The notes below the pieces were generated by a model, which did no database searches, had not been told where the DNA came from, and was given only the letters and a program-made list of their open reading frames with translations. A stretch of 41,532 nucleotides of DNA from Thermoguttaceae bacterium. Its GTDB lineage: Bacteria; Planctomycetota; Planctomycetia; Pirellulales; Thermoguttaceae. The position numbers and the translations under genes were made by a program. Each line of letters starts with the position of its first letter. Positions within the stretch are counted from its first letter, which is position 1. The stretch spans positions 1 through 41,532 of the forward strand of contig JAQVKF010000008.1 in assembly GCA_028694795.1 (NCBI GenBank), read 5' to 3'. Shown here piece by piece: positions 13,169 to 41,532 of the stretch.

Positions 13169-13411
13169 ATGGGGTTTGGAAGTGGTTGGCATTGGATTAT
13201 CGTTCTTGTGATCGTTCTGTTGCTGTTCGGCAACCGTCTGCCCACGATGATGCGTTCGCTCGGTCAAGGCGTCACGGAATTCAAGAAGGGTATCGAGGGC
13301 GGTAAGAAAGAGGGCGAAGACGAAGAAGAGGACGAAGAAGAGGAAGAGGAAGTTGCCCCGAAGAAAAAGAAGAAGAAAAAAGTCGATGTGACGGAAAACG
13401 ATGAAGAGTAA
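13169..13411 (+). CDS. tatA: TatA/MttA-family twin-arginine translocase subunit
   Basis: [45 protein letters not shown] (TM + LFG + amphipathic helix), followed by an acidic then Lys-rich tail. Confidence 0.92.
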
Positions 13412-13461
13412 TCTTCGAATGGTTTGAAGGAAATTTAATCATATTGTTGCCGATGTTTTTC

Positions 13462-13499
13462 GAGGTCGCTTCTAGGGGAAACGTTTCTGAAGTGACCTC
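13462..13499. other. Extended hairpin in the tatA-tatA2 spacer
   Basis: GAGGTCGCTTC ... GAAGTGACCTC pair with one G:U; the loop contains GAAACGTTTC, itself a palindrome. Confidence 0.55.
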
Positions 13500-13623
13500 T
13501 TGGAGAGGCTCGGTGTTTGATTTTCCGATGGTTCGGTGGAGATTGCCGGTATTTTCGGCATTTTCCGCGGAATGTGTATGTTGCGAATATTTTTCGAAGA
13601 AAAGTCGAATCGAGGAAACCACT

Positions 13624-16028: not shown

Positions 16029-16063
16029 ATGGGGTGGGTTGGACCACGTGACGCGGTTACCAA

Positions 16064-16100
16064 TTTTGCCTGACATTGGCACTGTCAACGCCTAATAAAA
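16064..16100 (+). repeat. Dispersed intergenic repeat, copy D (short/degenerate)
   Basis: TTTTGCCTGACATTGGCACTG...AACGCCTAATAAAA compared with copy B TTTTTACCTGACACTGGTACAG...AACACGCCCCAATAAAA. Confidence 0.5.
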
Positions 16101-16222
16101 AAACTCCTGGCCCATTACACGGACAGTCGGGTTGGAATATTCGGGCGATATGCAACCTATTCGGTCCGTGAGGACCGAGAACAAAACAAAGATCCAACAT
16201 TCCCGCAGATATAGGCAAAAAT

Positions 16223-22262: not shown

Positions 22263-23747
22263 TTACAAACTTGGGATGACGATTTCGCCATGTTCCGTAT
22301 TTGGATATGCTGGCGTGCTGTCGACCGTAGGCAGGGTTATTTCGACATATCCCGTGTCCGGATAATCCGGTGTTTCGATCGGTTTCAAGCTGTCCGCATC
22401 GTTCAAGCCATCCGTACTGGTCGGTTGGTCTGACGAAGCAATCGGCGGCTGAGTCGTATCCGAGATCGCCGGCAATGGCGGCAGATCGTTTTGTGGGACG
22501 GTCGCATCGGTTGGTTGAGCCGCTGGTCGAACTTGGGAAGCGTCCGCGGCGATGGCTACGCCATTAGGAAGGGGTAACATCGGTTCCGTCGAGGCCGTGT
22601 CCGTCGCGAATCGGTCCGTGGCGAGTGATTCTGCCGCGAATGGATCCGAGGTCCGCGGTTCCGCTATGAATCGCGAGTCGAATCGGCTAACTGGTTCCAC
22701 CGTATTGACAGGCGGAGTCATCGGGATTTCCAAACCGTTTTGAGCGATTTCTGGCGAGGAATCCGTTACCCCTGGTAAGGTTGTTTTTGGCGATGGTGTT
22801 CCCGGCACGTTCGTTTCAGGCAACCCCGCCTCTGGTAGCATGGGTAATCCTGTTTGTGCGATCGCATCCGTCATCGGCAGCGAAGCCGTTTGCGCGGCCG
22901 CACTGGGCGTGGACGAGGAGACGGTCGTTTGAGTCACATGATTGGTCGGCTGGGAAGCCGTTAGACTGGGTAACGTGACTGCCGAGCCAAAATCACTCAT
23001 CGGTTCTAGTTCCGTGAGATTGATCTTTGCCTCTGGTTGTCGCGGATTGAGTTTTTCTTTTTGCGCGTCCGAGTTGGCGATCTGTTGGCTCAAATCGCTG
23101 TGCGGTCCAATCGGTTCGGGAATCGTCTGCCGGATCGTGTGAATGACTCCCAACGCGACCACCAACATAGCGGCCACGCCCATCGGCACACGCCAATCAC
23201 GCCGGCGTCCGCGTGACGCCTCCGGAAGATTCCGAGACGCCACCACTTGCGGTCGGTTTTCCTCCCGTGATGCTCTCGAGGCGGAACCATGTGGCACGAA
23301 TTCTTCCATCCGACGTACGGACAATTTTTCCGAAGAGTCGGCGCATTCAGCAACTGCCGTATGGACCGCATCGGCGGTGTTTGATTCGGGAACCACACCC
23401 GGCACCGCCTGGACGGTGAAGACCGGAGTTCCCGGCAACACGAGCGGCTCAGAAGGCATCGTTTGGGCCCCCTCTGTCCATCGAGTTTCCGCATATCGTT
23501 CGGTAGAGCGATCCGACTTCTCGGCGTTGTCAAATGGAACGGAAACGTCCAGTGGGACATGGTCCGTTGGTCTTTTTTGACTATTTTTCGGCGGGAAATC
23601 TGCGGTATGAGAGCTTCCCATGGAACTGGTGACACGAGGAATGGTCGCGAGTACCACGAAGCCAAGATCCGGTGATGCCGCGGAATGGTTCATCGAAGCG
23701 AAACCGTCTTTTTGCATGGTCATATTCCTTACATTCCTTGTATCCAC
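22263..23747 (-). CDS. Single-pass membrane protein with Pro/Thr/Ser-rich extracytoplasmic region
   Basis: 494-aa ORF; TM near RDWRVPMGVAAMLVVALGVIHTI; low-complexity C-terminal half ending with two similar units. Start uncertain (downstream Met at 23720 possible). Confidence 0.7.
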   Translation of the reverse strand: MDTRNVRNMTMQKDGFASMNHSAASPDLGFVVLATIPRVTSSMGSSHTADFPPKNSQKRPTDHVPLDVSVPFDNAEKSDRSTERYAETRWTEGAQTMPSEPLVLPGTPVFTVQAVPGVVPESNTADAVHTAVAECADSSEKLSVRRMEEFVPHGSASRASREENRPQVVASRNLPEASRGRRRDWRVPMGVAAMLVVALGVIHTIRQTIPEPIGPHSDLSQQIANSDAQKEKLNPRQPEAKINLTELEPMSDFGSAVTLPSLTASQPTNHVTQTTVSSSTPSAAAQTASLPMTDAIAQTGLPMLPEAGLPETNVPGTPSPKTTLPGVTDSSPEIAQNGLEIPMTPPVNTVEPVSRFDSRFIAEPRTSDPFAAESLATDRFATDTASTEPMLPLPNGVAIAADASQVRPAAQPTDATVPQNDLPPLPAISDTTQPPIASSDQPTSTDGLNDADSLKPIETPDYPDTGYVEITLPTVDSTPAYPNTEHGEIVIPSL

Positions 23748-24680: not shown

Positions 24681-26012
24681 ATGCCGATCTTCCAGTTCGA
24701 AGCCCGGGACGCAACCGGACAGGAAATCAAGAATACGATTGAGGCGGCAACCGAGGAGGAAGCTCACGCCACAATACGTCAAATGGGATATTTTGTGACG
24801 AAGATATCCGTCAAGAAATCTCGTTCGACGGCGGATAAAAAGAAGGCGGTCGGTCGCAAGAAGACCTTTGCGCTGGGAGGCATCAAATCGAAGGTATTGA
24901 CGACATTCACCCGCCAACTTTCGATTTTGCAGGACGCGGGTTTAACGATTCTGCGTAGTCTGCGTATTCTGGAGCAGCAATCGAAACCGGGGGCGTTAAA
25001 GAACGCTCTCATCGATATTTGTGACGACATTGAGGGTGGTTCGACATTGTCAGAGGCGATGGCGAAGCAGCCGAAGAATTTTAGTCGATTATTTGTGAAC
25101 ATGATCAAAGCGGGTGAAGCGGGTGGTGCGTTGGAGGTGATTCTTCAGCGACTCGCCGATTTTCAAGAGAGTTCGGAGTCGTTGAAGCGTAAGGTGAAGG
25201 GCGCGTTGATCTACCCGGTGTCGGTGGTGACCTTTGCGACGGGTATTTTGGTCTTCATTATGTGGAAGATCGTGCCGGAGTTTGAGAAAATTTTCTCGAA
25301 CTTTGGTTTGAAACTGCCCGCGATGACGTTGCTATTGACGAAGGGGTCTTTTTTCGTATTGAACTATTGGTTCTTGATACCGGGGATTCCGTTTTCGATC
25401 TGGTTATTTATCAAACTAGTTAGGAAATTTGCGCCGGGCAGGTATGGGTGGGATTTATTCCTGCTGAAGATGCCGATTTTCGGTCAATTGGTAGAAAAGA
25501 ACATTTGTGCGCGAACCATGCGAACGTTGGGTACGTTGGTAGCTTCTGGTGTGCCGATTTTGGAGGCGATGAACATTACGAAGGAGACGAGTAACAACGC
25601 CGTTTTTGAGTTAATGTATCAGAAGGTATTGGAGGCGATTCGGGAAGGTGAACCGATTGCGGGGCCGTTGAAGCAGCATTCGTATACATCGTTTCATCCG
25701 GTGGCGTTATTTTTCTGGTTCGCGTTTATCGGCGGTCCGATTGGTGCGTTGCTGTACATGACGAGAATGCGGGCACGCATTGTGGACGACATGGTGGTCA
25801 ACATGATCGACGTGGGTGAGGAGACGGGTGAGTTGGACAAGATGCTCTACAAAGTCGCTGATACTTACGATGAAGAGGTGGCGGTATTGACCGAAGGTTT
25901 GACGAAGTTGATGGAACCACTCATGATTATCGTTTTGGGTGGTATGGTTGGTTTCATTGTGATTGCGTTGTTCCTTCCGTTGGTGGACCTGATTCAGAAC
26001 CTGTCGAAGTAG
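24681..26012 (+). CDS. Type II secretion / type IV pilus inner-membrane protein GspF/PilC family
   Basis: MPIFQFEARDATGQEIKNTIEAATEEEAHATIRQMGYFVTKI...LTTFTRQLSILQDAGLTILRSLRILEQQSKPGALKNALIDICDDIEGGSTLSEAMAKQPKNFSRLFVNMIKAGEAGGALEVILQRLADFQE...MIDVGEETGELDKMLYKVADTYDEEV...LMEPLMIIVLGGMVGFIVIALFLPL. Track start 24522 adds a non-homologous leader. Confidence 0.94.
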   Translation: MPIFQFEARDATGQEIKNTIEAATEEEAHATIRQMGYFVTKISVKKSRSTADKKKAVGRKKTFALGGIKSKVLTTFTRQLSILQDAGLTILRSLRILEQQSKPGALKNALIDICDDIEGGSTLSEAMAKQPKNFSRLFVNMIKAGEAGGALEVILQRLADFQESSESLKRKVKGALIYPVSVVTFATGILVFIMWKIVPEFEKIFSNFGLKLPAMTLLLTKGSFFVLNYWFLIPGIPFSIWLFIKLVRKFAPGRYGWDLFLLKMPIFGQLVEKNICARTMRTLGTLVASGVPILEAMNITKETSNNAVFELMYQKVLEAIREGEPIAGPLKQHSYTSFHPVALFFWFAFIGGPIGALLYMTRMRARIVDDMVVNMIDVGEETGELDKMLYKVADTYDEEVAVLTEGLTKLMEPLMIIVLGGMVGFIVIALFLPLVDLIQNLSK

Positions 26013-26257
26013 TGGTACCTGTCGAAATAGCGGCGATATCGAGGATATCGGACAAAATAGAGGCTGATACGTCGTTATCGAGAATTGGGCTATCGAAGGA
26101 TTAGGGCAGAAGCCGATGTCGGCGTTATCGCGATGTCGAAGTGGCGGGTGATGGGGGAGTAACCGGTGAGGTGCCCCCCGTCGCGGAGCGTTGGCGTTCC
26201 ATCAGGACGATTCATTGTTTGGGATGGAAATGGATGTGAAGATCATTTGGCCATGGT

Positions 26258-26308
26258 ACTCATACTAATACGGCACTCATACTAATACGGCACTCATACT
26301 AATATTGA
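26258..26308 (+). repeat. Tandem 17-bp direct repeat, 3 units (third degenerate)
   Basis: ACTCATACTAATACGGC x2 then ACTCATACTAATATTGA, 16 bp upstream of the pseudopilin start. Confidence 0.9.
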
Positions 26309-26324
26309 TAAGTGAGAAGCAGAG

Positions 26325-27242
26325 ATGAATCATAATACGAAGGGACGCTCGGCGTTTACGCTGGTGGAGTTATTGGTGGTGATCACGATCATCGGGATGC
26401 TGGCGGCGTTGATATCGGTAGCGGCGTCGATGGCGATGGGTGCTGCGCGTCGCAGTGCGATTAAGATGGAAATGACGCAGCTTTCCGTGGCGTTGGAGAA
26501 TTACAAGACGAAGTATGGCGAATATCCGCCGGACGGAACGGACACGGCAGCGGTAATTCGCCATTTGCGCAAAGCGTTTCCAAAAATGATGGATCCACCG
26601 AAGATGGACGCGACGAACACCTATGTGTTGTTGCCGTTCAAGTGTGGTCGTGGAGCCCATTCCGCTTTTGATGAAGTCCCTGTCACACCGGCGACGGCGT
26701 TGGTTCTATTTTTAGGTGGTAATTTATCGAAGAATCCGTTGAATCCGCTTTCGACATCTGGTGATCGAGTGGATGCGTTTTACGAATTCAAAGAGGATCA
26801 GCTGATCGAAGTCGCAGGGGGACCGCAGTACTTTCCATCTGGTTTGGAGCGAGATGAGGTCGCGCCGTTTGTCTATTTCAAAGCGCGTTTGACGAACGAT
26901 GGTGGTGCGTATTTTAATCGTGATAGTAAAGGCAATGCGATTCCGCTTTGTTGGCCGTTGGATTTGACGACGACCCCGCCGGTGGGTTTTGCGGTACCAT
27001 ATGCCGACAGCACCAAAAGCGATCCTGATCCGGCGAACTTAGAGGGGTCGAAATGGCGGGAGGCGACGAAGTACCAGATTGTGACCGCCGGCTTGGATGG
27101 TTTGTTCAGTGATCCGACGTTAGCGGGTGGCGACGTGTCGGTACGTGGCAGTAAGACGACGAACTTCGGTTGGAGCGAGGCAGATTACGATAATCTGACG
27201 AACTTTGCGGAAGGTACGATAGGCGACGAGTTGGAACAGTAG
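26325..27242 (+). CDS. GspG-like pseudopilin
   Basis: GRSAFTLVELLVVITIIGMLAALISVAASMAMGAARRSAIKMEMTQLSVALENYKTKYGEYPPDG. Confidence 0.9.
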   Translation: MNHNTKGRSAFTLVELLVVITIIGMLAALISVAASMAMGAARRSAIKMEMTQLSVALENYKTKYGEYPPDGTDTAAVIRHLRKAFPKMMDPPKMDATNTYVLLPFKCGRGAHSAFDEVPVTPATALVLFLGGNLSKNPLNPLSTSGDRVDAFYEFKEDQLIEVAGGPQYFPSGLERDEVAPFVYFKARLTNDGGAYFNRDSKGNAIPLCWPLDLTTTPPVGFAVPYADSTKSDPDPANLEGSKWREATKYQIVTAGLDGLFSDPTLAGGDVSVRGSKTTNFGWSEADYDNLTNFAEGTIGDELEQ

Positions 27243-27530
27243 TGTGCAGCCGCTTCGGACAGCCTAGCGGTCGATCCAATCACCTAGGGTTGCCCGATAG
27301 AGTATCCATGGTAGAGAGATTCGAGTCCATGACAGGGCGGATGTGCGATGAGTGAACCTGGCGGCGGATGCGACGTGGGGAATGATTCACGAGCGGATTG
27401 TCGCTCGCCGCGAATGCTCTTCGGCTTGTTTTTGTCGATTGAGTGAACTGGACGTGTATAGAATAGGGGTGGAGAAAAAAGACATCTTTTCCTCGCCACC
27501 TTATCATCATAAGACAGAGGAGACCGTTTG

Positions 27531-28895
27531 ATGCGACGGGATCATCGAAAACCTACTATATTCACGACAGGCCGCATGGGATTGCTGGTGAGGCGATCCG
27601 ATTTTGGTTTTTGTCCGGGTATGACGCTGGTGGAATTACTGGTGGCGATAGCGATTCTGGCGATCTTAGCGTCGGTTGGAATGTTAGCGGTCGAAGGCGG
27701 TCGTGAGGCGGCGCGTCGAACGGCGACGCAAGCGACCGTCGTAAAAATTGGCGATATACTCACGCAGCGATATGAATCGTATCTGGAGCGTAAGTTGCCG
27801 TTATCGTCGAATCAGATCGACCAATTGGCGTTGAACGCGAACTTCTGGACGACCTATTGGGGGGGCTTGTCGAATACAGGTTATTGGAAGGTAAGCAGTG
27901 GCATTCCAAATGGTTTATCGTTGACAATTTCGACGTTGACACCGATGATGACACAGGGTTATTCGCTGACGCCGCAGAACATCAAGCAGTATGTGTTGAA
28001 TAACATTTCGCAAGATCCGGCGGTAAAACTTGCGGCGATCAACATGACGTTATCGAAGATGCGAGCGCTTGTGCGGTTGACGGTGATGCGGGATACGATT
28101 CGTCTAGAGATGCCGGAGAAGCCGGCGGATTTGTGGATGATGAATTCGGATGGAACCCGCACGAACCAGCGGAATAATCCGGTCTGGGCGAAGTATGGCG
28201 TTTCACAACTCACGACGCCGGCGATGGAGTATATGTGGTCGATGACCGATGTGAAGGATCTAAATCAAGCGGATATTCTTTATTTGGTGGTGATGCAATC
28301 GTCTCCGGACGTACTTACCCAATTTAGTGAATCGGAAGTGGATGATATTGGTTTTGCGGAGGATGGAACGCCGAATCCGAACGATTTGAAGGAGTTTGTG
28401 GATGCGTGGGGGTTGCCGATGATCTTTTTCCGTTGGGCACCGGGTTATTCGCTGTCGGAGATCCAGTCGAGCGCGTCAACGGAAAGCGGTTTGGATGGTG
28501 ATTGGAGTGCGATGACGGATGGCAAGATGCGGTCGATTGAAATCACGAATAAGGACGGAACGAAAACGTCTGTTCAGGTGGGTCCTTACGAGCAAGTTCG
28601 TTGGTTGTTACACGAAAACGACCCCGATCCGTTAGACGTTTCGAATATGGATCCCTATGCGTGGCGTACAGTTCCGATTGTGGTTTCGGCCGGTCCGGAC
28701 GGCGAATTTGGGATGTTTTTCGATCAGTTAGAGACGTGGACGAACCAGACGTTCATACTTCAGCAACCGGATTCAGGTGGCGATCAGACGCTTTTTGGTT
28801 CACCGATGATCAAAGAGGGTGGGCTATTCAAGCATAGTCTGGACCAAGTGAGCGATAACGTGACGAATCACCAGCTATCGGAGGTCCAGCAATGA
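27531..28895 (+). CDS. Large prepilin-like protein
   Basis: PGMTLVELLVAIAILAILASVGMLAVEGGREAARRTATQ; ATG 27531, directly preceded by a TTG the ORF caller used as start. Confidence 0.87.
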   Translation: MRRDHRKPTIFTTGRMGLLVRRSDFGFCPGMTLVELLVAIAILAILASVGMLAVEGGREAARRTATQATVVKIGDILTQRYESYLERKLPLSSNQIDQLALNANFWTTYWGGLSNTGYWKVSSGIPNGLSLTISTLTPMMTQGYSLTPQNIKQYVLNNISQDPAVKLAAINMTLSKMRALVRLTVMRDTIRLEMPEKPADLWMMNSDGTRTNQRNNPVWAKYGVSQLTTPAMEYMWSMTDVKDLNQADILYLVVMQSSPDVLTQFSESEVDDIGFAEDGTPNPNDLKEFVDAWGLPMIFFRWAPGYSLSEIQSSASTESGLDGDWSAMTDGKMRSIEITNKDGTKTSVQVGPYEQVRWLLHENDPDPLDVSNMDPYAWRTVPIVVSAGPDGEFGMFFDQLETWTNQTFILQQPDSGGDQTLFGSPMIKEGGLFKHSLDQVSDNVTNHQLSEVQQ

Positions 28896-30178
28896 TATGT
28901 CGAGTTTCGTTTAGTCGAGCGTGGCTCGGTTCGTTGGCGAGCAGCTGTCCGGTTCGTGATCGATGGTCGTTGTGTGGGAGGTTGGCGAGTGATCGTCGTG
29001 GAATGACGCTTGTGGAACTTCTGGTGGTGATCGCGATTTTGGCGGTGTTGGCTGGGTTCATGATACCGCGGATTCCTGGGATGGTGCAAGGTCAGCGGAC
29101 ACGTGAGGCGGCGCGAACGGTGAACGTGGGAATTAGCATGGCACGCGGTCGCGCGATGGAATTAAATCGTCCGTGTGGGGTACGAATCGAGAACAATAAT
29201 GGTCAGACGCTGCTTCGGATCGTGGAAACACGTAAAGGGTTTTCCGGTTATACGGAGAATGCGACAGGTACGGTGACGGTGGCGAGTGCGACGCAGTTGA
29301 CATTGAGTGTGAATGAGGATCTTTCGGGTGTTGCGTCAAAGGGCGACCGTCTGGTACTTGGAGGTCGTCGTCCGGAATTGGAACTACCGTCAGACCCCAC
29401 GTTTGACAGCGCAACGGGTTACAGTACGGTGACGGCAAACCTGATTGCGGATGGCAGCAGTAATACCCTTCCGTGGACGGTGGGATCTGTATTTACGACG
29501 AGTTATTTAGTCAAGCCGAATCCGGAGCAGCCGAAATTTTCGAGCGGCTCGCGTCGTCCGACGGTGCTTCCGGCACAGACAACGGTCGATTTGGGCTGGT
29601 CAGGTGAGGGACGATCGTGTTGGGACGGGGATCCCTTTCGTGTGAAGGATCCGACGAAAACGTTATCGGAGGGTGGCTATCTGGATGATAATGGTCGCCT
29701 AGTCAGTCCGGTACCGGATGCGGTGACGATTCTGTTTGAGCCGGATGGGGCAATCTCACGTGTGGTAAAGGAATATCCGCGTTACACCGAGGGCGTGACC
29801 GCAGCGGTGGTGGTGGACACGAAGAGTGCGGAGCCGAATCAGCCGATTTATCTTTTGGTAGGCCGTCCGGATCAAATTGATTCTGAGTTATCCATACCGG
29901 GAATTCAAGTGCTTTCGGATGCGAAAGAAGCCAAAACGAATGTGATTGATAAAACGAACCTAGCGGATTACGATTGTCTGTGGGTTTCGGTGAATCATCG
30001 CAGTGGTCGAACGGTGACGAGCAGCAATTTAGCGCAAGGGTACGACGCCCAAATGGTGTACGAGAAGGAAAGCAATTGTCCATCGGAAGCCAGTGCGAAG
30101 TTGGGCTATGTGATTGATCGTGCTTTGTATGAATCGCGAACGTTAGCCCGTAGTGGCGATAGTGTGAGTACACGATAG
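28892..30178 (+). CDS. Large prepilin-like protein (GspH-like)
   Basis: RRGMTLVELLVVIAILAVLAGFMIPRIPGMVQGQRTREAARTVNVGISMARGRAMELNRPCGVRI; 4-bp ATGA overlap with upstream gene. Confidence 0.87.
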   Translation: MICRVSFSRAWLGSLASSCPVRDRWSLCGRLASDRRGMTLVELLVVIAILAVLAGFMIPRIPGMVQGQRTREAARTVNVGISMARGRAMELNRPCGVRIENNNGQTLLRIVETRKGFSGYTENATGTVTVASATQLTLSVNEDLSGVASKGDRLVLGGRRPELELPSDPTFDSATGYSTVTANLIADGSSNTLPWTVGSVFTTSYLVKPNPEQPKFSSGSRRPTVLPAQTTVDLGWSGEGRSCWDGDPFRVKDPTKTLSEGGYLDDNGRLVSPVPDAVTILFEPDGAISRVVKEYPRYTEGVTAAVVVDTKSAEPNQPIYLLVGRPDQIDSELSIPGIQVLSDAKEAKTNVIDKTNLADYDCLWVSVNHRSGRTVTSSNLAQGYDAQMVYEKESNCPSEASAKLGYVIDRALYESRTLARSGDSVSTR

Positions 30179-30336
30179 TGCGATGACGGAGCGGTGTTGG
30201 CTGAGCCGGTTGGCGTGTGAGTGATGATCCGCGTGATCATGGAAGCGTTTGGGCAACGAAAGTGTGGTGGTCCACTGATTGTGGTGGACCGCCTGCGTGA
30301 GGGGTGAAACATAACGAGATCAGGAGTTTCTGGCTC

Positions 30337-31548
30337 ATGAATATACGAACATTCCATCGACGTAGCCGACACGGTTTTACCCTTTTGGAGGTGTTGACGG
30401 CGATATTTGTATTAACGTTTGGTCTTTTAGGGATCACGGCGATGATGCAGATTGGCGGTTATCGAGCGTGGCAGGCGACGCGACAAGCGAAGGCATCGTA
30501 TTTGGCAGAGCAGGCGTTTGCCGATTTGCAGGTACGAGGCACATTGAAGAACGCGGTGGAATCAGCGGGCGGTGTGTTGAATGGTCTGGAGGTTCGAGGT
30601 TTCGTGAATCGTTCGAGCATGGTTTACGATCCATTTGGCGAGCGAGCGGTGATAGACAAGAGCGATGTGCGTCGATTCTCGGTAGCATCGAATCCGGACG
30701 CGGCGTCGCCGAGGTTGTCGTCCTACTTTAGCGTTCCGACCAGTACGGGTTGGCGAGAAATGATTGCGGGCGATTACGGAACGGGGAATTTTTACGATCC
30801 GCTTCGTGTCCAACCGACGGTGTCACGGGATGATTTGGTGTGGAATGACAAGAACAGTGACCGTCGCCCGGTAGCGGAGTACTATACGGCGACATTGGAT
30901 TTGGAGCCGTTAGTGTCGGCGAATGGGACACTCAATGTCAACGCGGTGATCCAAGCGTCCGAAGGACGTTGGAGCTGGCTAGCGACGATTCAACCGTTGG
31001 GCGGTCGTGTGAACGTCGATATGAATGGCGATAACATCGTGGAAAATTTCGCGTATCGGACGAACACCTATGAGGTTTCAGTCGCGGTCTATGAAACTCG
31101 TTCGTTTGCGGCGGAACGTCAGTTTGATGTGGAGCACGACAGTACGACGGACAGCGGGATAAATGCGTTTACGGAAGCGATGTACCGCAAAAGTTTCCGA
31201 TTGAATCCTGTCGGGACGAGTGCTTCGGAGCGAGCGATTTTGAAGCCCGGTCACTGGGTGGCACTGGTTGGCAAACCGGTTCCTGGGATAAACACGTCCG
31301 TTGGCAATCAAGATTGGCGTGTCGTTTGGTTCCAGGTGGTGAGTTCGCAGCCGCTGGCCAATGCGATGTATGACGTTCAATTAGAAGGTCCAGATCTCGT
31401 AAGTTTGACGACGACATACAACGCGACGACGAAGAGTTATCAGCAACTGTATACACCGCAGATATTTTTGCCAACGAGTGACGTATATCTCATTACCGAT
31501 CCGGATATTGTGGGGGTGGTGACGCGAACGCTCCAGGTCACCGACTAA
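30337..31548 (+). CDS. Prepilin-like protein (GspI/PilV-like)
   Basis: MNIRTFHRRSRHGFTLLEVLTAIFVLTFGLLGITAMMQIGGYRAWQATRQAKASYLAEQAFADLQVRG; AGGAG upstream of ATG 30337. Track start is 30304. Confidence 0.87.
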   Translation: MNIRTFHRRSRHGFTLLEVLTAIFVLTFGLLGITAMMQIGGYRAWQATRQAKASYLAEQAFADLQVRGTLKNAVESAGGVLNGLEVRGFVNRSSMVYDPFGERAVIDKSDVRRFSVASNPDAASPRLSSYFSVPTSTGWREMIAGDYGTGNFYDPLRVQPTVSRDDLVWNDKNSDRRPVAEYYTATLDLEPLVSANGTLNVNAVIQASEGRWSWLATIQPLGGRVNVDMNGDNIVENFAYRTNTYEVSVAVYETRSFAAERQFDVEHDSTTDSGINAFTEAMYRKSFRLNPVGTSASERAILKPGHWVALVGKPVPGINTSVGNQDWRVVWFQVVSSQPLANAMYDVQLEGPDLVSLTTTYNATTKSYQQLYTPQIFLPTSDVYLITDPDIVGVVTRTLQVTD

Positions 31549-31813
31549 GGTGGCGATTTAGCAGGCGTAGTGGGTGGAATGACGGCTTTTCGGCGTGTTG
31601 GTTCGAAGGTGAATTTGAATTCGTGTGGTGTTTTTGGCATGAGAGAAGGGTGAAAGCTACTGGTTCAAGCTGTGTTCTTAGGGAGGTTTTAGCCTTGGGA
31701 CCGGTTTGGGCTTGTGAGTCCGTTGGTTCGTGTCCGTTTGCGTGTCGTATGTAGAGGCAGACAACGATCATTCTTTGAAGGAATGTGAAATAGACGAGAG
31801 AAGAGGTTCCGAG

Positions 31814-34800
31814 ATGACGACTATCCGCATGAACAAAAGAGTCCGTATGAGCCGTATTCGAGGCCGACGGGATCGTCGTGGCATGTTGTTGATGATAGTG
31901 TTAGGTCTTTTGGCGTTATTTGCGATGATTGGCGTATCGTTTGTGTTGATCACGTCCGATGCGGATCGCAGCGCGAAGGCGACCTTATCGGTGACGGAGA
32001 AGCGTCAATCCTCGACGGAGCTTTTGGGCGAGGCGGCGATGCGAGTGTTCCGCGGCACGAACGCCGGGGCGTGGGATGATCGTCCGATTGGAACGCACAA
32101 TCTGCTAACAGACATGTACGGTTCGCCATCTGCCAGCAATATGATCAATGCGAGCAATGAGGCGTTTCAGCTGCAAATCGTCCTAGGTACGGATGGTAAT
32201 TATCTTTTGAATGCGGATAGTTGGACGAATATTCTCGCCAAGTTGTATGTGGAAGAACAATCGCGTTTACAGACGATGGTGGTGAGTGGCGAACTTACGA
32301 GTACTCTGATGCAGCGATATCTTCAGGAGTACGAAGCGAATCTTCCATATCGTCTAATGAGCAGTTATTTAGGTCTTTCGAATGGCGATATCTATCAAGT
32401 GGTGAGCATGGCAGGTAATGCGCCATTACTGAGGGCGATTTATTTGATGCCGGAGACCCGCAAGGTTTTTAACGCTGGCAACGGCATGGCTTATGAGAAG
32501 CTGACCTATTCGCTTTATAAGCCGTTTGGCGGAACAGGTCTGACCCAGGTGACAGCGCCGTTTGCGTGGACGACGGATAAAGATGGCAAAGATACGAGTC
32601 AAGCGGTGGCCAAGACGGCGATTCCGTTCGAGATGTTGCCTAACATGCCCGTTTCGGCGTATGGTACGAACCGAGCGCAGGGCGGCGATTATAACGAAGA
32701 GTACGATTCTCCCGATATGCAAAACATGTTTTTGGCATACGCAGTAACGGATGATGGTACCCCGAACAAAGCACAGCGTGTGGTGTTACCGTCGTACTAT
32801 CGTCCCGACTTGCTGGCGTATTGGTATCGTCGCGCGATGATGGATACGGACGATGTGGGGAGTGGTTCGACGGTGAATTTTGTACCATTGTATTACGGGG
32901 CGGCTAAGACGTGGACAATGCAGGCGATTGATTGGAACACGATTTACGCTTGTGTGAGCGAGTTGGTTGGCAATAGTGCGCCGAATGTAGCCACAGGAAA
33001 CACGACGGACAAATGGGCTCAGCGTGTGTTGTGTTTGGAGCAGATCCGTGGCTATCACGTTGGTTCGCACACCGAGACGGAAAGTGTGGAATGGGCGCAT
33101 TTCTTCGCGGTACGTCGATTCGTGGAGTGGCTTTCATTCCGACCGGCGGATTCAACCTTTACGGGCAGCAATCCGAACTTTGGCCTCAAATATGTCGCCG
33201 CCGATGGTACATTCCAGACGGGGCCGTGGGATGTGGATAACGATGGCGACGGTACGCCGGACAGCGTTTGGGTGGATTTGGGGCTTCCGATGCAGATGGG
33301 TCCGGACGGTCGTCTGGTGCAGCCACTCGCGGCGGTGTTGTGTCTCGATATGGATGGTCGTTTGAATGTGAACGCGCACGGTCACGATATGCAACTTGTG
33401 TCTAACGTGATCAATCCTGGTGGCGGTCCGCTTGGTCGTGGTTTTGGTCCAGCGGAGATTGCGCTCGGTAATGTGGTGACGGCGAGCGGTTTAGATCGAC
33501 TTTTACATGGCGATACGACACAGGGAATCGAAGGACGGTTGGGTGAATGGGGTTCATCCATTACGCCGGTGCGCGGTGGAACGACGCTTGCGTACAATGG
33601 GGCTTACGTGTTGACGAATCAAAACGTACCGACGCCGGCGGATGGTTCTATGGCGTATTCGAACTTTGCGGCGTGGGGACAGTACTACCCGCAGATGTTG
33701 GCGACCGGTACGAAGAGTGGAGCAACAGTTTGGGACTTTTATTACGGCATGTTGCCGGACACGCTCGGTTCGCTTTACATTCAGACCGATGTGACAGGTC
33801 CGTATGGGGCGGTGCAGGGTGATATGGCGAGCAATTTTGGCTTAGCGGTCATGAGAAACAATCCCGCGGCGCTTTATGCGGCGAATACGAATTATTGGGT
33901 TGATTTGACGACGCCGAAACGAAATTCGTCCGGCGGCAAGGCTCAGATCGATAATCCGTTTACGCCTGCCGATTTGGAGCGTATTTTGCGGATGAGCGAC
34001 GCGGATCGCAGTACGCTCACGGCGCGGTTAACGACGCTTTTGAATAGCGGGGACAATAATGCGTTGTATCGTCAGATATTGACGACGGACAGTTATCACG
34101 TTCCGGCGACGCCAGCGGTGGAATTGCCACAGTATCAAGTGGAGGTCAGTGGAACGACGAGCACTTATACATCGAAGGAAGAACTGGATCTTCCGTCGCG
34201 TTACGGGAGTGTTACCGAGGCGTTGACGCGGTATTTGCGGATGATGGAAAGCCAAATGTCCGGAACAGGCGTTTATTCGGCGGCGGTGGACTCATATGAC
34301 AATACAGTGTCTGTGGATACGATGATTGCTGGCGAGTTTTACCAGGGGCTTCCAATCAATCCGAATCGTCGATTTACGGATGAGCAATACTTGCTGGATA
34401 ATCCCGGTACGGCGATTCCACCGGCGGACGCGATTACGGCGGGACGGACGGAACGTCAGGCGATGGCACGTCAGTTGTACGTGCTGGCAAAATATTTGAC
34501 ACGACACTGGAAGCTGAATATTGATGCAGTCGCTGATTTGGCGAAACTTCCTGGGTACAAAAAGATTGCCACGTTGAATGTTCCGGAAGGCAAAACGCGA
34601 GAGGATGCGTTAGTGTCGTTATGGCTAGCGCAGTGGGCGGTGAACGTAGTTGATTTCCGCGATCGTGATTCGGCGATGACTCTGTTCTGGTTCGATCCGT
34701 TTCCGGACGCGCAGACGGGTGGTTCGAGTGACCAGCTTGGTTGGACGAAAGATAAGGCGAATTTAATACTGGTTTTTGGATGTGAGCGACCGGACCTTTT

Positions 34801-37702
34801 GATTACGGAAACGCTGGCGACCCATGCGCGACGTACGGAAGATACGGCGGAAGATGCGACGGGTAAAATGACGACGTCGCAAAAGGATCCGGACGACGAT
34901 TTCGATCAGAAGCGTCGTCCGATTGGTTCGCTTTTTGTGGAGGTTTACAATCCATGGGGAGCGGGCGAGGCGGCTCCGTCGCCAGAGTTGCGACCATCGC
35001 AAGATTGGGCGAGTGCCGAAACGGATGTTCGGAGTGTGTCGCTCAATATGGTGAACGGGAATGGCGATCCGGTGTGGCGCATGGGTTTCCGAAAGGGGTT
35101 GCCGAATGACGAGGCGTTCGAGTTGGACGATCCACTGGAGTCGGGCAAGGAATTCGAGCGAACGTTGTACTTTGCGGAACCGAAGAGCGTGGTGACGGGT
35201 TCAACGACGGGAACTGATGGTGAGACCGTCGATACGCTTCGGTATATGGCGTCGAGTGCGGCGAATCAAGATTTGAATAGCAATAACATGTGGGTTCGTC
35301 CGGGCCAGGCGGTGGTGATTGGTCCTTACGATGCGGAGTGGAAAACTTGTACACCGCTTGCGAAGGGAAATAACACCTCCGATTGGTTTGACTGGGACGA
35401 GACTCGGTACATTGATCTGTATGACACGCAGCACGGGACGAAAAGTTTTTCGGTCTGGTACAACTACTTTGGTGATCGCAGTAAGGATGCGAGCAAGTTA
35501 TACGATCTGAATGGTCGTGACCCGTTCAACATGTCGAATGTGTTGCCGATCGCGGTGGATCGTGTGGATATGCGAGAAGCGAGTGCGACCAGTGCGAGTT
35601 GGAAGGTGACGGGTGGGGAAAATCCGCGTTTTAGCGTTTCTGAACCGATCCGCTCGGACGCAAGTTTTACCGATTACTACGGCGTAAAATGGGGGGCCGA
35701 TCCGCTTGGAACCGATTCGAACGATGATTATTATTATACGGCGGTTCTAAACGACCCAATCCAAAGCAGTAATGAGGAGATCCAGAAGAACGGTTTGGCC
35801 GGACAGCAGACTGCGAATTTGGAGATGCCGAAGGGCAGCTATAACGATCGTTTGGCGTATTTACAGCGATTAGCGGATCCGCGGTTACCGTATAATCCAA
35901 ATCCGAACGACACCGATTTGGCGTACAATCCGTACGTGACGATAGACAAGGCACCGATTGATTTGGTGACGTACAATGGTTGGAATCCAGGGAATGAGGG
36001 GGATGAGAGTAAGGAATTAATTCCGGATGGTTCGAAGCGTAAGATGGCCTCCGAGAATAAGGTCGTTTTCCGATCACGTGAGCGAGGTTATTTCCGGCAG
36101 AATGTGGACGACAACCAGAATATCCAGACCGATTTGTGGGCACAAGAGCCGATATTGGATCAGATTCAGTTAGGTCGTGAGGGTACCGATGCGGCGGGTC
36201 AAACGTTACGGAAGTTGACGGCGTTTACCGAGCAACAGTCGAGTCCGGTGGCGGAGGCGTTTGCGGATGGTTCTGGAGATGCGTTGTCTGGGATCGAGTT
36301 TACGCCGTATTTGTCCCACTCGTTAGGTGGGGCGAACCTCTGTTTTTGGGGTAAGACGAACGCTGGTGGTACGGTAGGTCAACCGACGATGCGTCCATTG
36401 GATTTGGCGACCGGTACGCTTGCCGTTCCGAGTAATGGTCCGTTTTCGGTTTTGGCGTGGAATAATTCGCCGTATAACAGTCGGATGGAGTTGATGCAAG
36501 TGCCGGTAACGAGCATGTCTCGGTTCCTCGCGGCCCCGATTTATCGGATCGAAGTGGATAATACGGGTAAGGTTACCAATGTGCCGAAGCTGTTAGAGCC
36601 GGGGTACTCGTTGGTGACGGTAGACGATGCGTCTGAATCGCCATTGGCGGTGACCGGTGATGAGCCTGAAGTTTGGCCATATGCGGGTTACGACAATGTG
36701 AAGTTGACGGGTGCGAATTCGGATGATCAAGGGGATGGGCGTTGGTATCCGCATTTGATGAACTTCTTCGATTCGTCGGCGACATATTTGGAGACGGCGG
36801 GTTCGGAGACGAAGCGAGTGGCTTATGCCTCGAATTTTGGCCAGATATTGGACTTTGTGGACACCCCATCAGCTTATACCGGTGCGTCGGCGTGGCGGCG
36901 TGAGCCAGGCAATGTCAATGTAAATACGATTCCGACAGTGGTGAATGGTGTGAATCGAGACTCGGCGGTCTGGCCCGCACTTGCCGGAACGAAAGCGGCG
37001 AGAGATTTTGAGGTGTTAGATCGTAGTCGTCAATACTTACCGGATGGGGGTAAATCGCATTGGTTGCTTTCGACCGATACGACGACTGGCATGCCGGCGT
37101 TGGCGTTTGACGGAACAACACCGACGATCTTCGCGAATCCTGTCCGTGCGATGTCCACGTTTGAGTCAGCGTTCAATGTGGACTATGATCCAAGTGTGGC
37201 TCCGACGGGTACCAAGGACGACGATTACCGGAATTGGTCGCCGAGCGTTTTGAACGCGGCGCAGCAGGCGAAAGGTGGTGCGGGGGCGGTGTATGTACAA
37301 CCGCAGCCGGCGTATGTGGGGTTATTGCGACCGAAATCAGGTCCAGACATGGGGACAGGCGAGAATGGAGCCGCGAGTCCGGTATTGGCGTATTATTCGG
37401 TGGGTGATTCCGATGTGACTCGTAACCCGCGTTTCCGTTACGAACAGTTGCAGCGTATGGCGAATCTGACGACAGATCGTTCGAGTGTGTACGCGGTCTG
37501 GGTAACGCTGGGTTACTTTGAGGTGACAGGGCAAAACTCCGGTAAACCGATGTTAGGCGAAGAGGTGGAGAGTTCCAACGGAATTCCGAATCGTCCGCGA
37601 GCGTTTTATATGTTCGACCGATCCGTTCCGACGGGCTATCAGCCCGGCTCGGACATTGGTACGGATCGTGCGGTGTTATTGCGTCGTGTGATTAACGAAT
37701 AG
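31814..37702 (+). CDS. Giant GspK-position pseudopilin-like protein (~1960 aa)
   Basis: MTTIRMNKRVRMSRIRGRRDRRGMLLMIVLGLLALFAMIGVSFVLITSDADRSAKATLSVTEKRQSS; long extracytoplasmic region; DVDNDGDGTPDSVW Ca-binding-like motif at about 33230-33271. Track start 31730; ATG 31814 has an AGAGG upstream. Confidence 0.85.
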   Translation: MTTIRMNKRVRMSRIRGRRDRRGMLLMIVLGLLALFAMIGVSFVLITSDADRSAKATLSVTEKRQSSTELLGEAAMRVFRGTNAGAWDDRPIGTHNLLTDMYGSPSASNMINASNEAFQLQIVLGTDGNYLLNADSWTNILAKLYVEEQSRLQTMVVSGELTSTLMQRYLQEYEANLPYRLMSSYLGLSNGDIYQVVSMAGNAPLLRAIYLMPETRKVFNAGNGMAYEKLTYSLYKPFGGTGLTQVTAPFAWTTDKDGKDTSQAVAKTAIPFEMLPNMPVSAYGTNRAQGGDYNEEYDSPDMQNMFLAYAVTDDGTPNKAQRVVLPSYYRPDLLAYWYRRAMMDTDDVGSGSTVNFVPLYYGAAKTWTMQAIDWNTIYACVSELVGNSAPNVATGNTTDKWAQRVLCLEQIRGYHVGSHTETESVEWAHFFAVRRFVEWLSFRPADSTFTGSNPNFGLKYVAADGTFQTGPWDVDNDGDGTPDSVWVDLGLPMQMGPDGRLVQPLAAVLCLDMDGRLNVNAHGHDMQLVSNVINPGGGPLGRGFGPAEIALGNVVTASGLDRLLHGDTTQGIEGRLGEWGSSITPVRGGTTLAYNGAYVLTNQNVPTPADGSMAYSNFAAWGQYYPQMLATGTKSGATVWDFYYGMLPDTLGSLYIQTDVTGPYGAVQGDMASNFGLAVMRNNPAALYAANTNYWVDLTTPKRNSSGGKAQIDNPFTPADLERILRMSDADRSTLTARLTTLLNSGDNNALYRQILTTDSYHVPATPAVELPQYQVEVSGTTSTYTSKEELDLPSRYGSVTEALTRYLRMMESQMSGTGVYSAAVDSYDNTVSVDTMIAGEFYQGLPINPNRRFTDEQYLLDNPGTAIPPADAITAGRTERQAMARQLYVLAKYLTRHWKLNIDAVADLAKLPGYKKIATLNVPEGKTREDALVSLWLAQWAVNVVDFRDRDSAMTLFWFDPFPDAQTGGSSDQLGWTKDKANLILVFGCERPDLLITETLATHARRTEDTAEDATGKMTTSQKDPDDDFDQKRRPIGSLFVEVYNPWGAGEAAPSPELRPSQDWASAETDVRSVSLNMVNGNGDPVWRMGFRKGLPNDEAFELDDPLESGKEFERTLYFAEPKSVVTGSTTGTDGETVDTLRYMASSAANQDLNSNNMWVRPGQAVVIGPYDAEWKTCTPLAKGNNTSDWFDWDETRYIDLYDTQHGTKSFSVWYNYFGDRSKDASKLYDLNGRDPFNMSNVLPIAVDRVDMREASATSASWKVTGGENPRFSVSEPIRSDASFTDYYGVKWGADPLGTDSNDDYYYTAVLNDPIQSSNEEIQKNGLAGQQTANLEMPKGSYNDRLAYLQRLADPRLPYNPNPNDTDLAYNPYVTIDKAPIDLVTYNGWNPGNEGDESKELIPDGSKRKMASENKVVFRSRERGYFRQNVDDNQNIQTDLWAQEPILDQIQLGREGTDAAGQTLRKLTAFTEQQSSPVAEAFADGSGDALSGIEFTPYLSHSLGGANLCFWGKTNAGGTVGQPTMRPLDLATGTLAVPSNGPFSVLAWNNSPYNSRMELMQVPVTSMSRFLAAPIYRIEVDNTGKVTNVPKLLEPGYSLVTVDDASESPLAVTGDEPEVWPYAGYDNVKLTGANSDDQGDGRWYPHLMNFFDSSATYLETAGSETKRVAYASNFGQILDFVDTPSAYTGASAWRREPGNVNVNTIPTVVNGVNRDSAVWPALAGTKAARDFEVLDRSRQYLPDGGKSHWLLSTDTTTGMPALAFDGTTPTIFANPVRAMSTFESAFNVDYDPSVAPTGTKDDDYRNWSPSVLNAAQQAKGGAGAVYVQPQPAYVGLLRPKSGPDMGTGENGAASPVLAYYSVGDSDVTRNPRFRYEQLQRMANLTTDRSSVYAVWVTLGYFEVTGQNSGKPMLGEEVESSNGIPNRPRAFYMFDRSVPTGYQPGSDIGTDRAVLLRRVINE

Positions 37703-37728
37703 TCGGTGGTCAACGGAGGGGTCATTAT

Positions 37729-37759
37729 CCAGCGTTGACGCATTGAAGTTGACGCTGGG
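37729..37759 (+). terminator. Weak hairpin between the giant gene and the GspJ-like gene
   Basis: CCAGCGT...ACGCTGG with T-rich GTTTATTTA downstream; may be an attenuator or partial terminator. Confidence 0.4.
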
Positions 37760-37923
37760 TTTATTTACGGCTGCGGGTTACGCATTGGCGTAAGAGTGTT
37801 TTCATGGAGTTTTAGGGTTCGCTTCATCCGAGTACATTTTTGTTCTTTTAGCCGATTACCAATCCAATTCGACGGTCCGTTTGGCGGTTCGTGAGGGTTG
37901 TAAAACGATAAGGGATTGAGTTT

Positions 37924-39435
37924 ATGAGACAGACACAACGATCCGGTTATACCTTGATAGAGCTTTTGCTTGCGATGGCGTTAGGATTAATGATTCTGGC
38001 GGCGGTGATTCAAATGTTCTCGGTGATGGGTAACACGATCAACAGTTCTCGTTCGTCTTTGGAGATGAACGAGGAGTTGTGTCGGACAACGGCTCTTTTG
38101 CGGAGTGATTTGGAAGGTTTGACGGTGGTCGCTGATCCGCCGCGAGCACCAGAGAACGGCGAGGGTTATCTGCAAATTATCGAAGGGCCGGTCGGGGTGG
38201 CGACGGATCCAACGACGGTTTCGTGGGACACGGACGGCGAGGTCGAGCGTCCGGACACGACGCTTGGTGACATCGACGACATTTTGTTGTTTACGAGTCG
38301 TAAGGAGCAGGGGTTCCGAGCGAAGAAAAATGATACCGTCCAGAAGTTTGACGCGGCGGAGGTCGCTTGGTTTGTTCGTGGCAACAAATTGTATCGCAAG
38401 GTGTTGGCGATTGATACTGATCCGACGATGAAGGCGGAGCCTGCGTCAAACGCGTTGAATTTTTTTCGCGATAATGATATATCGGTGAATATGGTCACCG
38501 ATTCGAGCGGCAACGTTTTTTACGAACGCAACACGCTTGCGTCGCTGACTCGTCCAGACTGTCGCTATGGGGCGTGTTGGGCGGGTGGCTTTGTGAACAA
38601 TGCGGCACCACCATCGTTTCCGGGCAGCCCCTATGGTTTATGGCATTTTGCATATCCACAGATGGCTGGTTCGAAAAGTGTTTGGACGGAGGGAAGTCTT
38701 CCAACGTTAGGTCTTCCGCTCGCGGCGGAGATTTATTATGGGGGGAAGACGAACGCCGGTCCGATCTGGAAGACGGTGACATCGGGTGATGTGGGCGCGA
38801 TGAACGGCAATTTTGATCCCTGGCGTAATCCGATGCCGTGGAATGGTGTGAATGTGAACGATAATGTGTTGATGATGGTCAACGGAGCGTTGGCGTCCGC
38901 GTACTCGAACAGTGATACCTTGAGTGACTATGTGGTGGATCGTAGCCGTGTGGGTGAGGATTTAGTGCTAACGAATGTGTTGAGTTTTGACGTGAAGGTA
39001 TGGGATCCAAACGCCCCAGTGCGTGGCGTGGAGGTAACGCTTCCGATCAATCCATCGCTTCGCGGTTGGGCTGCGAATACGAATCCGATAGGTTTGGGGG
39101 CGTATGTTGATTTGGGATATTTGCCAAGTGTGAAGACGGATACACTTCGTACCAATTTTTCGGATGTTCGTCTTCCGTCGCGGAACGATGCGGTGGCGGC
39201 TGTCTACAATGTGGATACTGCCATCACAGGGCGGCCGCGTATATATGATACGTGGGCAACGCACTACGAGGCGGAGTTGAATGCGGCGACAGGTTTAACG
39301 CCTGGCGGTGTATGGAAATGTTCGGCACCGTATATGAGCAAATTGCGCGGTATCCAGGTGACGTTGCGAGTGTTCGATCCGGATTCGCGTCAGATTCGTC
39401 AAGTGACGTTGGAGCATCGTTTGCGTACCAGCTGA
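37924..39435 (+). CDS. GspJ-like prepilin
   Basis: MRQTQRSGYTLIELLLAMALGLMILAAVIQMFSVMGNTINSSRSSLEMNEELCRTTALLRSDLEGLTV. Confidence 0.88.
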   Translation: MRQTQRSGYTLIELLLAMALGLMILAAVIQMFSVMGNTINSSRSSLEMNEELCRTTALLRSDLEGLTVVADPPRAPENGEGYLQIIEGPVGVATDPTTVSWDTDGEVERPDTTLGDIDDILLFTSRKEQGFRAKKNDTVQKFDAAEVAWFVRGNKLYRKVLAIDTDPTMKAEPASNALNFFRDNDISVNMVTDSSGNVFYERNTLASLTRPDCRYGACWAGGFVNNAAPPSFPGSPYGLWHFAYPQMAGSKSVWTEGSLPTLGLPLAAEIYYGGKTNAGPIWKTVTSGDVGAMNGNFDPWRNPMPWNGVNVNDNVLMMVNGALASAYSNSDTLSDYVVDRSRVGEDLVLTNVLSFDVKVWDPNAPVRGVEVTLPINPSLRGWAANTNPIGLGAYVDLGYLPSVKTDTLRTNFSDVRLPSRNDAVAAVYNVDTAITGRPRIYDTWATHYEAELNAATGLTPGGVWKCSAPYMSKLRGIQVTLRVFDPDSRQIRQVTLEHRLRTS

Positions 39436-39501
39436 GGTGGTGGGCGCAGGTTCGGTTATGGGTTGTACAGGGTAGCGCTGGATGGTCGTGGTTTTTGGGG
39501 G

Positions 39502-39531
39502 AACGGATGGGTGAAGGTCCATCCGTTTTTT
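39502..39531 (+). terminator. Rho-independent terminator closing the pseudopilin operon
   Basis: AACGGATGG-GTGAAGGT-CCATCCGTT followed by TTTT; perfect 9-bp stem. Confidence 0.88.
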
Positions 39532-39711: not shown

Positions 39712-41532
39712 ATGAAAAGTGAAGTACGGAAGACGTTTTTCTTTGTAGGCGTGGCGTTTTTTGCGGCATTATTAGCGTGGTTGGTTCAGCCGAGGGACGA
39801 TTCGTTAGCCCAGCCGATCGACATGGTGGGTCAGCTGATAGTTTCCGAGCGAGGCGACAGCGCGTCGTTGCTGGACGCGACGGGGATGGAGATCGTTCGT
39901 TGGGACGAGGTGGATCAGAAGCCTTTTCGTTTTGTAGTCCAAGAGGATTCTGAGGGGAAGTGGGTCATTCCATCCCATTCGGACTATCCAGCGGATGCGA
40001 AGGAGCAATTTGGTAAGGCGTCATCGGCATTGACGGGGGTGAAGATATTGTCGGTCGCGAGTGATTCCCCGTCGGAGCACAAGGCGTTTGGTTTGTTGGA
40101 TCCCCTTTCGGGAGCAGTGCAGGGTGGCAAGGCAACTGCGGAGCAGATTGGTACACGGATTACGTTCCGCAACAAGTCCGGTCAACCAATTGTTGATTTG
40201 ATTGTCGGTCACGAAGACAAGGAGCAAGAAGGAACACGGTATGTGCGTTATGCGGATAAGGACACGATTTACCAGATCGAGTTGGATCTTTCGCAGTTTT
40301 CGACCTCGTTTAGCGATTGGATCGAGAAAGATTTATTGCAAGCGGATGGCATGCTAGGGTTGCGGAATGTCGCGATTGAGGATTACGTGATTGAAGGGGA
40401 TCGGAAGGTGAATCGGGGAGTGATCCTATTGGATTACGACGATCGGGCCGATCCGCGATGGCAATTAAAGGACGCGGTTCGTTACGAGGGCGGCAAGCCA
40501 CAACCGGTCTCGTTAGCGGCGGACGAGCAACTTTCGGTGAGTGTGCTGGATAATCTTCGAGCGGCGTTGGGCGAGTTAAGTATCGTGGATGTGCGCCGCA
40601 AATCGGATAGCGTTCGCAAATTGATCAATGCGGAACCGGTCTCGGAATCGGAACAGACGCAAATGCAGTTAGACATGGCGTCGTGTGGTTATTTTATTGC
40701 CGATCTTCCTGACGTTGGTCTTTCGTTAGTGGCGAATGAGGGATTGATCCAAGCGAGCCTGAGCGATGGAGTGGATTACGTTTTGCAGTTTGGAGCGTTG
40801 ACGAAGGCGGCGGGCGAGAATCTAGACGCGATGAAAAAGAGCGATGCGGCGGATCCCGCATCAAACGAAGCGCCGGCCTCGGAAGAGAAAAAGGTCGGGC
40901 AAAATCGTTTTCTGTTTGTTCGAGTGGGATTTAACCAGGAAACGATTAAGAAGCCGGAGTTGAAACCATTGCCGACAGCTCCGGAAGCTCCGGCGGCGGA
41001 TGCGGACGAAGCGGCCAAAACGGCATACAACGCAGCGTTGACGGCGTTCCAATCGGAGAAGGAGAAGATCGAATCGGAGAATGCGGCGAACCAGCAAGAA
41101 TATGACGATGCCATTGCCGCCGGTCAGGAGAAGGCGAAGCGGTTACAAGCGAGATTTGCGGATTGGTACTACGTCGTATCGGATGCCGAATTCCAGAAAA
41201 TCCATTTAACCTGGAATCAGGTGGTGGAAAAGAAATCGGCGAATCCGGAGGGAGCGGCGGCTGGATTGCCAGGCATGCCACCAATGCCGATGGAACGCAA
41301 ACCAGACCTTGATTCCAACGTGATGGATTTCGGCAAGATGATCGAGGCGGCGGAGGCGAAAGCAGCAGAACCCGCGGCAGAACCCACTCCAGCTCCAGAG
41401 ACCCCGGCGGCAGAACCCGCAGCAGAACCCACTCCAGTTCCAGAGACCCCAGCGACGGAACCCGTAGCAGAGCCCATTCCAGTTCCAGAGACCCCAGCGG
41501 CAGAACCTGCTCCAGCTCCAGAGACCCCGGCG
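39712..41532 (+). CDS. DUF4340-like protein, partial (C-terminus beyond window)
   Basis: Manual translation from ATG 39712, open to the window end: MKSEVRKTFFFVGVAFFAALLAWLVQPRDDSLAQPIDMVGQLIVSERGDSASLLDATGMEIVRWDEVDQKPFRFVVQEDSEGKWVIPSHSDYPADAKEQF...LLDP...ITFRNKSGQPIVDLIVG...RYVRYADKDTIYQIELDLSQFSTSFSDWIEKDLLQ. Not in the ORF track because no stop is reached. Confidence 0.82.
   Translation, partial: MKSEVRKTFFFVGVAFFAALLAWLVQPRDDSLAQPIDMVGQLIVSERGDSASLLDATGMEIVRWDEVDQKPFRFVVQEDSEGKWVIPSHSDYPADAKEQFGKASSALTGVKILSVASDSPSEHKAFGLLDPLSGAVQGGKATAEQIGTRITFRNKSGQPIVDLIVGHEDKEQEGTRYVRYADKDTIYQIELDLSQFSTSFSDWIEKDLLQADGMLGLRNVAIEDYVIEGDRKVNRGVILLDYDDRADPRWQLKDAVRYEGGKPQPVSLAADEQLSVSVLDNLRAALGELSIVDVRRKSDSVRKLINAEPVSESEQTQMQLDMASCGYFIADLPDVGLSLVANEGLIQASLSDGVDYVLQFGALTKAAGENLDAMKKSDAADPASNEAPASEEKKVGQNRFLFVRVGFNQETIKKPELKPLPTAPEAPAADADEAAKTAYNAALTAFQSEKEKIESENAANQQEYDDAIAAGQEKAKRLQARFADWYYVVSDAEFQKIHLTWNQVVEKKSANPEGAAAGLPGMPPMPMERKPDLDSNVMDFGKMIEAAEAKAAEPAAEPTPAPETPAAEPAAEPTPVPETPATEPVAEPIPVPETPAAEPAPAPETPA
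41365..41532 (+). repeat. 45-bp in-frame tandem repeat encoding AEPAAEPTPAPETPA-type units
   Basis: Units 41365-41409, 41410-41454, 41455-41499, and a shortened fourth unit to the window edge; Pro/Glu/Ala-rich. Confidence 0.9.

Follow-up and report, generated by a model that had tools for sequence, protein, structure and literature searches.

A run of seven co-directional genes on the forward strand (24681-39435), encoding the platform protein GspF/PilC, five prepilins that pass the Pfam N_methyl model and a giant protein of 1990 aa, is probably the pilin half of a split filament locus of the type IV pilus (T4P)/T2SS kind, capped by a single giant modular GspK (hereafter K). The locus was analyzed within a window of 41,532 nucleotides, the whole stretch of DNA under study, from the draft metagenome-assembled genome (89% complete) of a Thermoguttaceae bacterium. 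The safest label for the system is "hybrid type IV filament", because PilT and PilM are characteristic of T4P and the gene order G-H-I-J-K of T2SS. The enlarged pseudopilus proposed in an earlier note on this DNA is partly supported.

The first gene (24681..26012, +) encodes the inner-membrane platform protein GspF/PilC (Pfam T2SSF, 8.3e-58; NCBIfam GspF, 1.6e-105); its open reading frame opens with a TTG at 24522, and the family start fits the ATG at 24681. It is followed on the same strand by P2 (26325..27242), a GspG-like prepilin of 305 aa (N_methyl, 5.6e-6) whose position is conserved; P3 (27528..28895), an extra prepilin of 455 aa (6.5e-6); P4 (28892..30178), a GspH-like prepilin of 428 aa (1.6e-7), the start of which overlaps the stop of P3 by 4 bp; P5 (30304..31548), a GspI/PilV-like prepilin of 414 aa, or ~403 aa if begun at an inner ATG (6.9e-6); K (31730..37702), a GspK-like prepilin of 1990 aa, or ~1,960 aa if begun at inner ATGs, assigned by orthologue conservation and a profile chain to GspK; and J (P7; 37924..39435), a GspJ/PilW-like prepilin of 503 aa (3e-5). 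The minor-pilin family labels rest on matches that lie under the curated cut-offs and cover just the first ~50-80 residues: P2 to GspG (1.2e-10 across the first 70 aa), P4 to GspH (2.2e-8), P5 to PilV/GspI (PilV, 1.8e-7) and P7 to PilW/GspJ. Among the Pfam and NCBIfam matches, no canonical T2SS counterpart of P3 was identified; this gene is kept throughout the order and in class family f21, and was not detected in the synteny comparison at the f23 and f62 loci. An intrinsic terminator with a perfect 9-bp stem and an 8-nt loop followed by T6 (39502..39527, +) closes the locus, and a stem-loop of 13 pairs between K and J (37727..37760, +), found in a pattern scan whose count only slightly exceeded that of shuffled sequences, is a possible attenuator or terminator. 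The positions and sizes of the reading frames, the identity of GspF and the perfect terminator are as the earlier note had described them, as are the six prepilin-like N-termini, five of which exceed the N_methyl cut-off; the giant falls below it and has a GspK-type start.

The gene order is conserved among relatives, in which the operon reads PilT / PilB / GspF / G-like / extra pilin / H-like / I(PilV)-like / giant. Synteny was counted wherever 8.5 kb or more of upstream sequence was available, which applied to 32 loci: the order F-P2-P3-P4-P5-K is exact in 25, and PilB/PilT-type ATPases, the PilT-sized one mostly of 366-383 aa, lie just upstream in 29. P5 stands directly 5′ of K in most of the loci compared. 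This synteny, for which the earlier note had proposed a search, together with profile homology backs its assignment of the genes as F-G-x-H-I-K-J and its view of an enlarged minor-pilin set. The position of J is variable: it lies 3′ of K in the source locus and in L071, L088, L093, L118, L122, L124, L130 and L149, 5′ of K in L053, in class family f21 and in f23, and away from K in many other loci; f21 and f23 have the order ..H-I-J-K, which is that of the canonical T2SS. Loss of J from the latter relatives was rejected, as the J profile gave a strong match in 23/23 genomes tested, usually at a distance from K; J is therefore conserved but has moved. Because it is usually not beside K, one H-I-J-K complex is not proven by the operon alone.

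T2SSE, secretin, prepilin peptidase and PilM gave no match on the contig that carries the locus; a T2SSE-type ATPase, a secretin, a prepilin peptidase and PilM are all present on other contigs of the same genome. PilB (574 aa), PilT (376 aa) and PilB′ (569 aa) are encoded together on a separate contig, and the operon is therefore split rather than deprived of its machinery; missing machinery was accordingly rejected as an explanation. A single PilM is found on contig C142, and two secretin open reading frames encode 1362 and 1235 aa. The claim that GspE and GspD are absent from the window thus stands, and extends to T2SSE and secretin for the whole contig, but both are encoded elsewhere in the genome, as emerged from the search for gspE, gspD and pilD that the same note had suggested. 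A special assembly machine is not borne out, since PilB and PilT adjoin the locus upstream in most relatives and are merely relocated here, with the secretin, PilM and peptidase also encoded elsewhere.

The genome contains every component of a T4P that was sought (PilB, PilT, PilC, PilM, secretin and PilD) as well as GspE, GspF, secretin and prepilin peptidase of a T2SS; a T2SS would have no dedicated retraction ATPase, and PilT is found in the operon of relatives and beside PilB in this genome. It is possible, rather than probable, that the locus encodes a true T2SS pseudopilus, in which the giant would remain within the enlarged planctomycete periplasm, where its head would sort substrates or work as a piston that drives folded enzymes through an oversized secretin. 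The order G-H-I-J-K of outgroup loci, the resemblance of K to GspK and not to PilX, and the large secretins of this genome are consistent with such a pseudopilus, whereas the PilT-type ATPase of the conserved operon and the genomic PilM point to a T4P.

The giant begins with DRRG/MLLMIVLGLLALF (the slash marks the prepilin peptidase site), which combines this site with a hydrophobic helix (residues 51-75) and lacks Glu5; this residue is absent from canonical GspK too, and its absence keeps the giant below the Pfam N_methyl cut-off. The consensus N-terminus of 19 giant orthologues is RRG/VLLLVVL, and E. coli GspK, which starts with QRG/VALLIVLMLLALM, likewise has no Glu5. Alignment of the 19 orthologues revealed ~100 invariant columns between residues 51 and 1986, and the cleavage glycine G51 is invariant. 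Blocks along the protein include an EF-hand-like DVDNDGDG with LNVNAHG (residues 501-551), AQW..VDF (967-980), NSPYNSRMELMQVP (1578-1592), PGNVNVNT (1726-1733) and a C-terminal block, YAVWVTLGYFEV (1921-1990).

A single-sequence scan of genome contigs returned no match, but an alignment scan succeeded and found 240 stretches that encode the giant; among the 79 matches listed, the sources are Pirellulales, Thermoguttaceae and other Planctomycetota, with a few metagenome-assembled genomes that are generically named or likely mislabelled. Of 147 genomes from the same order, 130 contain the giant (117/128 of those of good quality), mostly as an open reading frame of 1,500-3,200 aa, and its size is not a product of chance or artefact, because the order as a whole retains full-length orthologues. 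The enlargement is thus order-wide, and further families of the class and phylum have homologues of 1,546-1,718 aa, so that the lineage-specific enlargement suggested earlier does not hold. The giant itself has no match in Pfam, NCBIfam or the PDB, and no lectin or adhesin domain known so far was recognized in it by profile searches.

Direct profile comparison of the giant with canonical GspK, the latter represented by 18 planctomycete sequences and that of E. coli, yielded four local matches, collinear between the two: the N-terminal helix (E 1.5e-4), DLDGRLNLNAHG, NRPF..ELMLVP and PGKVNLNT. Those other than the helix are each weak (E 0.019 for the C-terminal core). The K proteins of family f62 (862/947 aa), which occupy the same operon slot and adjoin an H (173-185 aa) and an I (234-241 aa) of canonical size, align with GspK in their C-terminal (2.2e-9) and N-terminal (1.6e-7) parts. 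They also align with the giant in two blocks, a C-terminal one with NVNT (5.6e-9) and one with DVDNDGDG/LNVNA (7.4e-9); one of these blocks reads DVDNNGDGVLDSQWID..RINVNVTG in the f62 protein and DVDNDGDGTPDSVWVD..RLNVNAHG in the giant. K proteins of 1,323-1,718 aa in turn match the giant over its full length (1.7e-65). As controls for these profile comparisons, a reversed GspK profile gave no match, and 30 column shuffles scored at most 16.7, compared with the real score of 77.4. The NCBIfam model T2SS_GspK (NF037980) matches the 947-aa and 862-aa proteins under its cut-off (3e-10 and 8e-7, respectively), and neither NF037980 nor PF03934 matched any of the 19 giants. PF03934 is a short domain whose phylum-wide matches comprise true GspK as well as helix-hairpin-helix proteins of other kinds, and these matches were therefore taken only after N-terminal filtering.

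This profile chain through syntenic intermediates identifies the giant, at the level of sequence, as an inflated GspK: it has the Glu5-less prepilin helix, a place after I/J in a pseudopilin operon and, via the 862/947-aa intermediates, a homologous C-terminal core from the INVNTA block onward, while remaining below the cut-off of the curated model. The sizes of K form a series of ~330, 900, 1,320, 1,600, 2,000 and 3,100 aa, and the extra sequence of the giant lies between the GspK core blocks, with ~400 residues before NVNA and ~1,000 between NVNA and ELMLVP. That the giant is instead an unrelated membrane-anchored protein, prepilin-like just at its N-terminus and merely carried in the operon, appears very unlikely; the silence of Pfam and NCBIfam and the weak direct similarity to GspK would fit such a protein, but the homology chain through 862-1,718-aa proteins in the same slot with its negative controls, the invariance of G51 and the position of the giant 3′ of I, which is fixed in most complete loci, all argue against it.

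Canonical GspK (XcpX; NF037980, PF03934) and the giant share the Glu5-less prepilin start, the collinear blocks FNLNA, N-P-EL-V and NVNT, and the last position in the order G-H-I-(J)-K. GspK too is a modular protein, its pilin sheet containing an inserted domain (PMC8179133), and it binds calcium (PMC6211770). The giant family differs in its length of ~1,600-3,200 aa, compared with ~300-400 aa for GspK, in escaping the curated models and in carrying extra conserved blocks without a known fold. Modular type IV pilins, such as PilB and PilC of S. sanguinis, CofB and ComZ, similarly join a pilin module to a large extra module presented by the filament, and the largest found in an InterPro survey, which required the N_methyl signature, has 860 aa (PMC8179133). 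Members of the planctomycete family exceed it in size by a factor of two to four and lack this signature, and their added mass lies between the core blocks rather than after the core.

A further comparison is offered by the Verru_Chthon cassette (TIGR02600, 02598, 02599 and 02596; proteins A-D), which belongs to bacteria of the PVC superphylum. It likewise consists of three prepilins and one large protein; P4 has a match to TIGR02596 (1.4e-9), and the 947-aa K aligns at its end with that of TIGR02600 (0.041), but all matches are far under the curated cut-offs and most cover the N-terminal pilin motif alone. TIGR02600 (protein A) matched none of the 19 giants, and no description of the giant-K family or its operon was found in the open-access literature.

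AlphaFold models of K residues 49-1000 and 940-1990 had mean pLDDT values of 49 and 55, respectively, and were reasonable just for the N-terminal helix, the sole well-modelled part of the first piece, and for parts of residues 950-1410. A Foldseek search with the better model returned no fold match, and with models of such low confidence no fold is therefore claimed for the giant head. A lamin-tail-domain insert, suggested by a Pfam LTD match (E 1e-4) in the 862-aa homologue, was rejected for the giant, where the profile alignment spans 8-9 residues; an hmmsearch with the candidate block found nothing in the PDB beyond marginal matches to disulfide isomerase.

In the proposed model, PilD would cleave the pilins, which PilB and GspF would polymerize into a thin filament, and H, I, J and K would form the initiating tip complex. 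The tip complex of the T2SS comprises GspI, J and K, with H below (PMC6211770). The globular part of K would have grown ~sixfold through insertions inside the pilin core and would cap the filament as a single ~215-kDa head, one per tip. A pilin-type subunit without Glu5 would be terminal, and because K lacks Glu5, no subunit would be expected to stack above it. The filament would be retracted via PilT, and the head would most likely bind an extracellular or periplasmic ligand (a substrate, polymer or surface). Such binding would probably involve calcium, which is suggested for K because the DxDxDG loops are conserved and GspK is known to bind calcium.

As for the job of the head, K may possibly be a tip adhesin, a modular pilin in the role of PilY1 that holds cells to surfaces or polymers. 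The added modules of modular pilins are usually adhesive (PMC8179133), and in P. limnophila and G. obscuriglobus, fibres that resemble pili bind dextran (PMC5394234); a PilY1 search was matchless in 98 genomes, but it was equally so in control genomes, so that absence is not shown, and the giant contains no recognizable lectin or adhesin domain. The piston and adhesin readings both fit the anatomy of the locus and differ in the final place of the head. The probabilities assigned to them overlap with that of the giant-capped hybrid filament, as both readings propose a function for one and the same giant tip protein.

The giant-capped filament locus is a candidate for the fibres at planctomycete crateriform structures, which in P. 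limnophila and G. obscuriglobus are pili-like and bind dextran, the route of uptake being speculative (PMC5394234). It seems unlikely, though conceivable, that this filament, being retractable, is the basis of these fibres and that its huge head captures polymers and draws them to an oversized secretin, to be taken up into the enlarged periplasm. If read correctly, giant K would surpass in size every modular pilin family of which a description was found. It is retained throughout an entire bacterial order but has no entry in Pfam or NCBIfam, and its intermediates trace a possible growth of a tip protein from 330 aa to more than 3,000 aa. For planctomycete biology, giant K offers a concrete gene candidate for both the fibres and macromolecule uptake, in a group for which genetic tools exist.

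Two minus-strand genes adjoin the filament locus in the window, encoding a weakly matching ParA/MinD/tyrosine-autokinase-like ATPase (20767-22032) and a Pro/Thr-rich protein with a single TM segment (22263-23747), and this pair is possibly an exopolysaccharide or positioning module. The plus-strand gene located 3′ of the terminator (39712-41532), which encodes a DUF4340 protein (match 1.2e-16) and is incomplete, as the contig ends inside it, looks to be separate from the filament locus.

Among the relatives, genes resembling that of the giant GspK-like prepilin K are paired in tandem in the related stretches L104 (1659 + 1573 aa), L137 and L145 (820 + 1566 and 850 + 1579 aa), and the insert of the 862-aa K homologue of L209 (9789-12377) contains a candidate lamin-tail domain at residues 362-437 (Pfam LTD, E 1e-4, under the cut-off). 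Proteins of 1,103-1,528 aa in other Planctomycetota (L211, L218 and L222) have a GspK-like N-terminal helix, as does K, but share a C-terminus (..LDD..LT.L..P..) different from that of K, and apparently represent a second giant prepilin-like architecture.

The window's genome (G000) harbors a second filament cluster in L076 (G000:C263:5000-18129; 7920-13130), in which three prepilin genes, whose products measure 189, 474 and at least 511 aa, come after that of a 400-aa GspF paralogue. Both of its secretin ORFs are oversized (1362 aa, L074 9524-13612; 1235 aa, L075 8587-12294), one of them containing five Secretin_N matches. PilM is usually ~350 aa, far below the size of the sole PilM of this genome, a 902-aa ORF (L225, G000:C142:12000-30645; region 8489-16153); the 811- and 763-aa ORFs that follow it in the same region may encode a PilN/PilO-like platform, and the platform may be enlarged as well.
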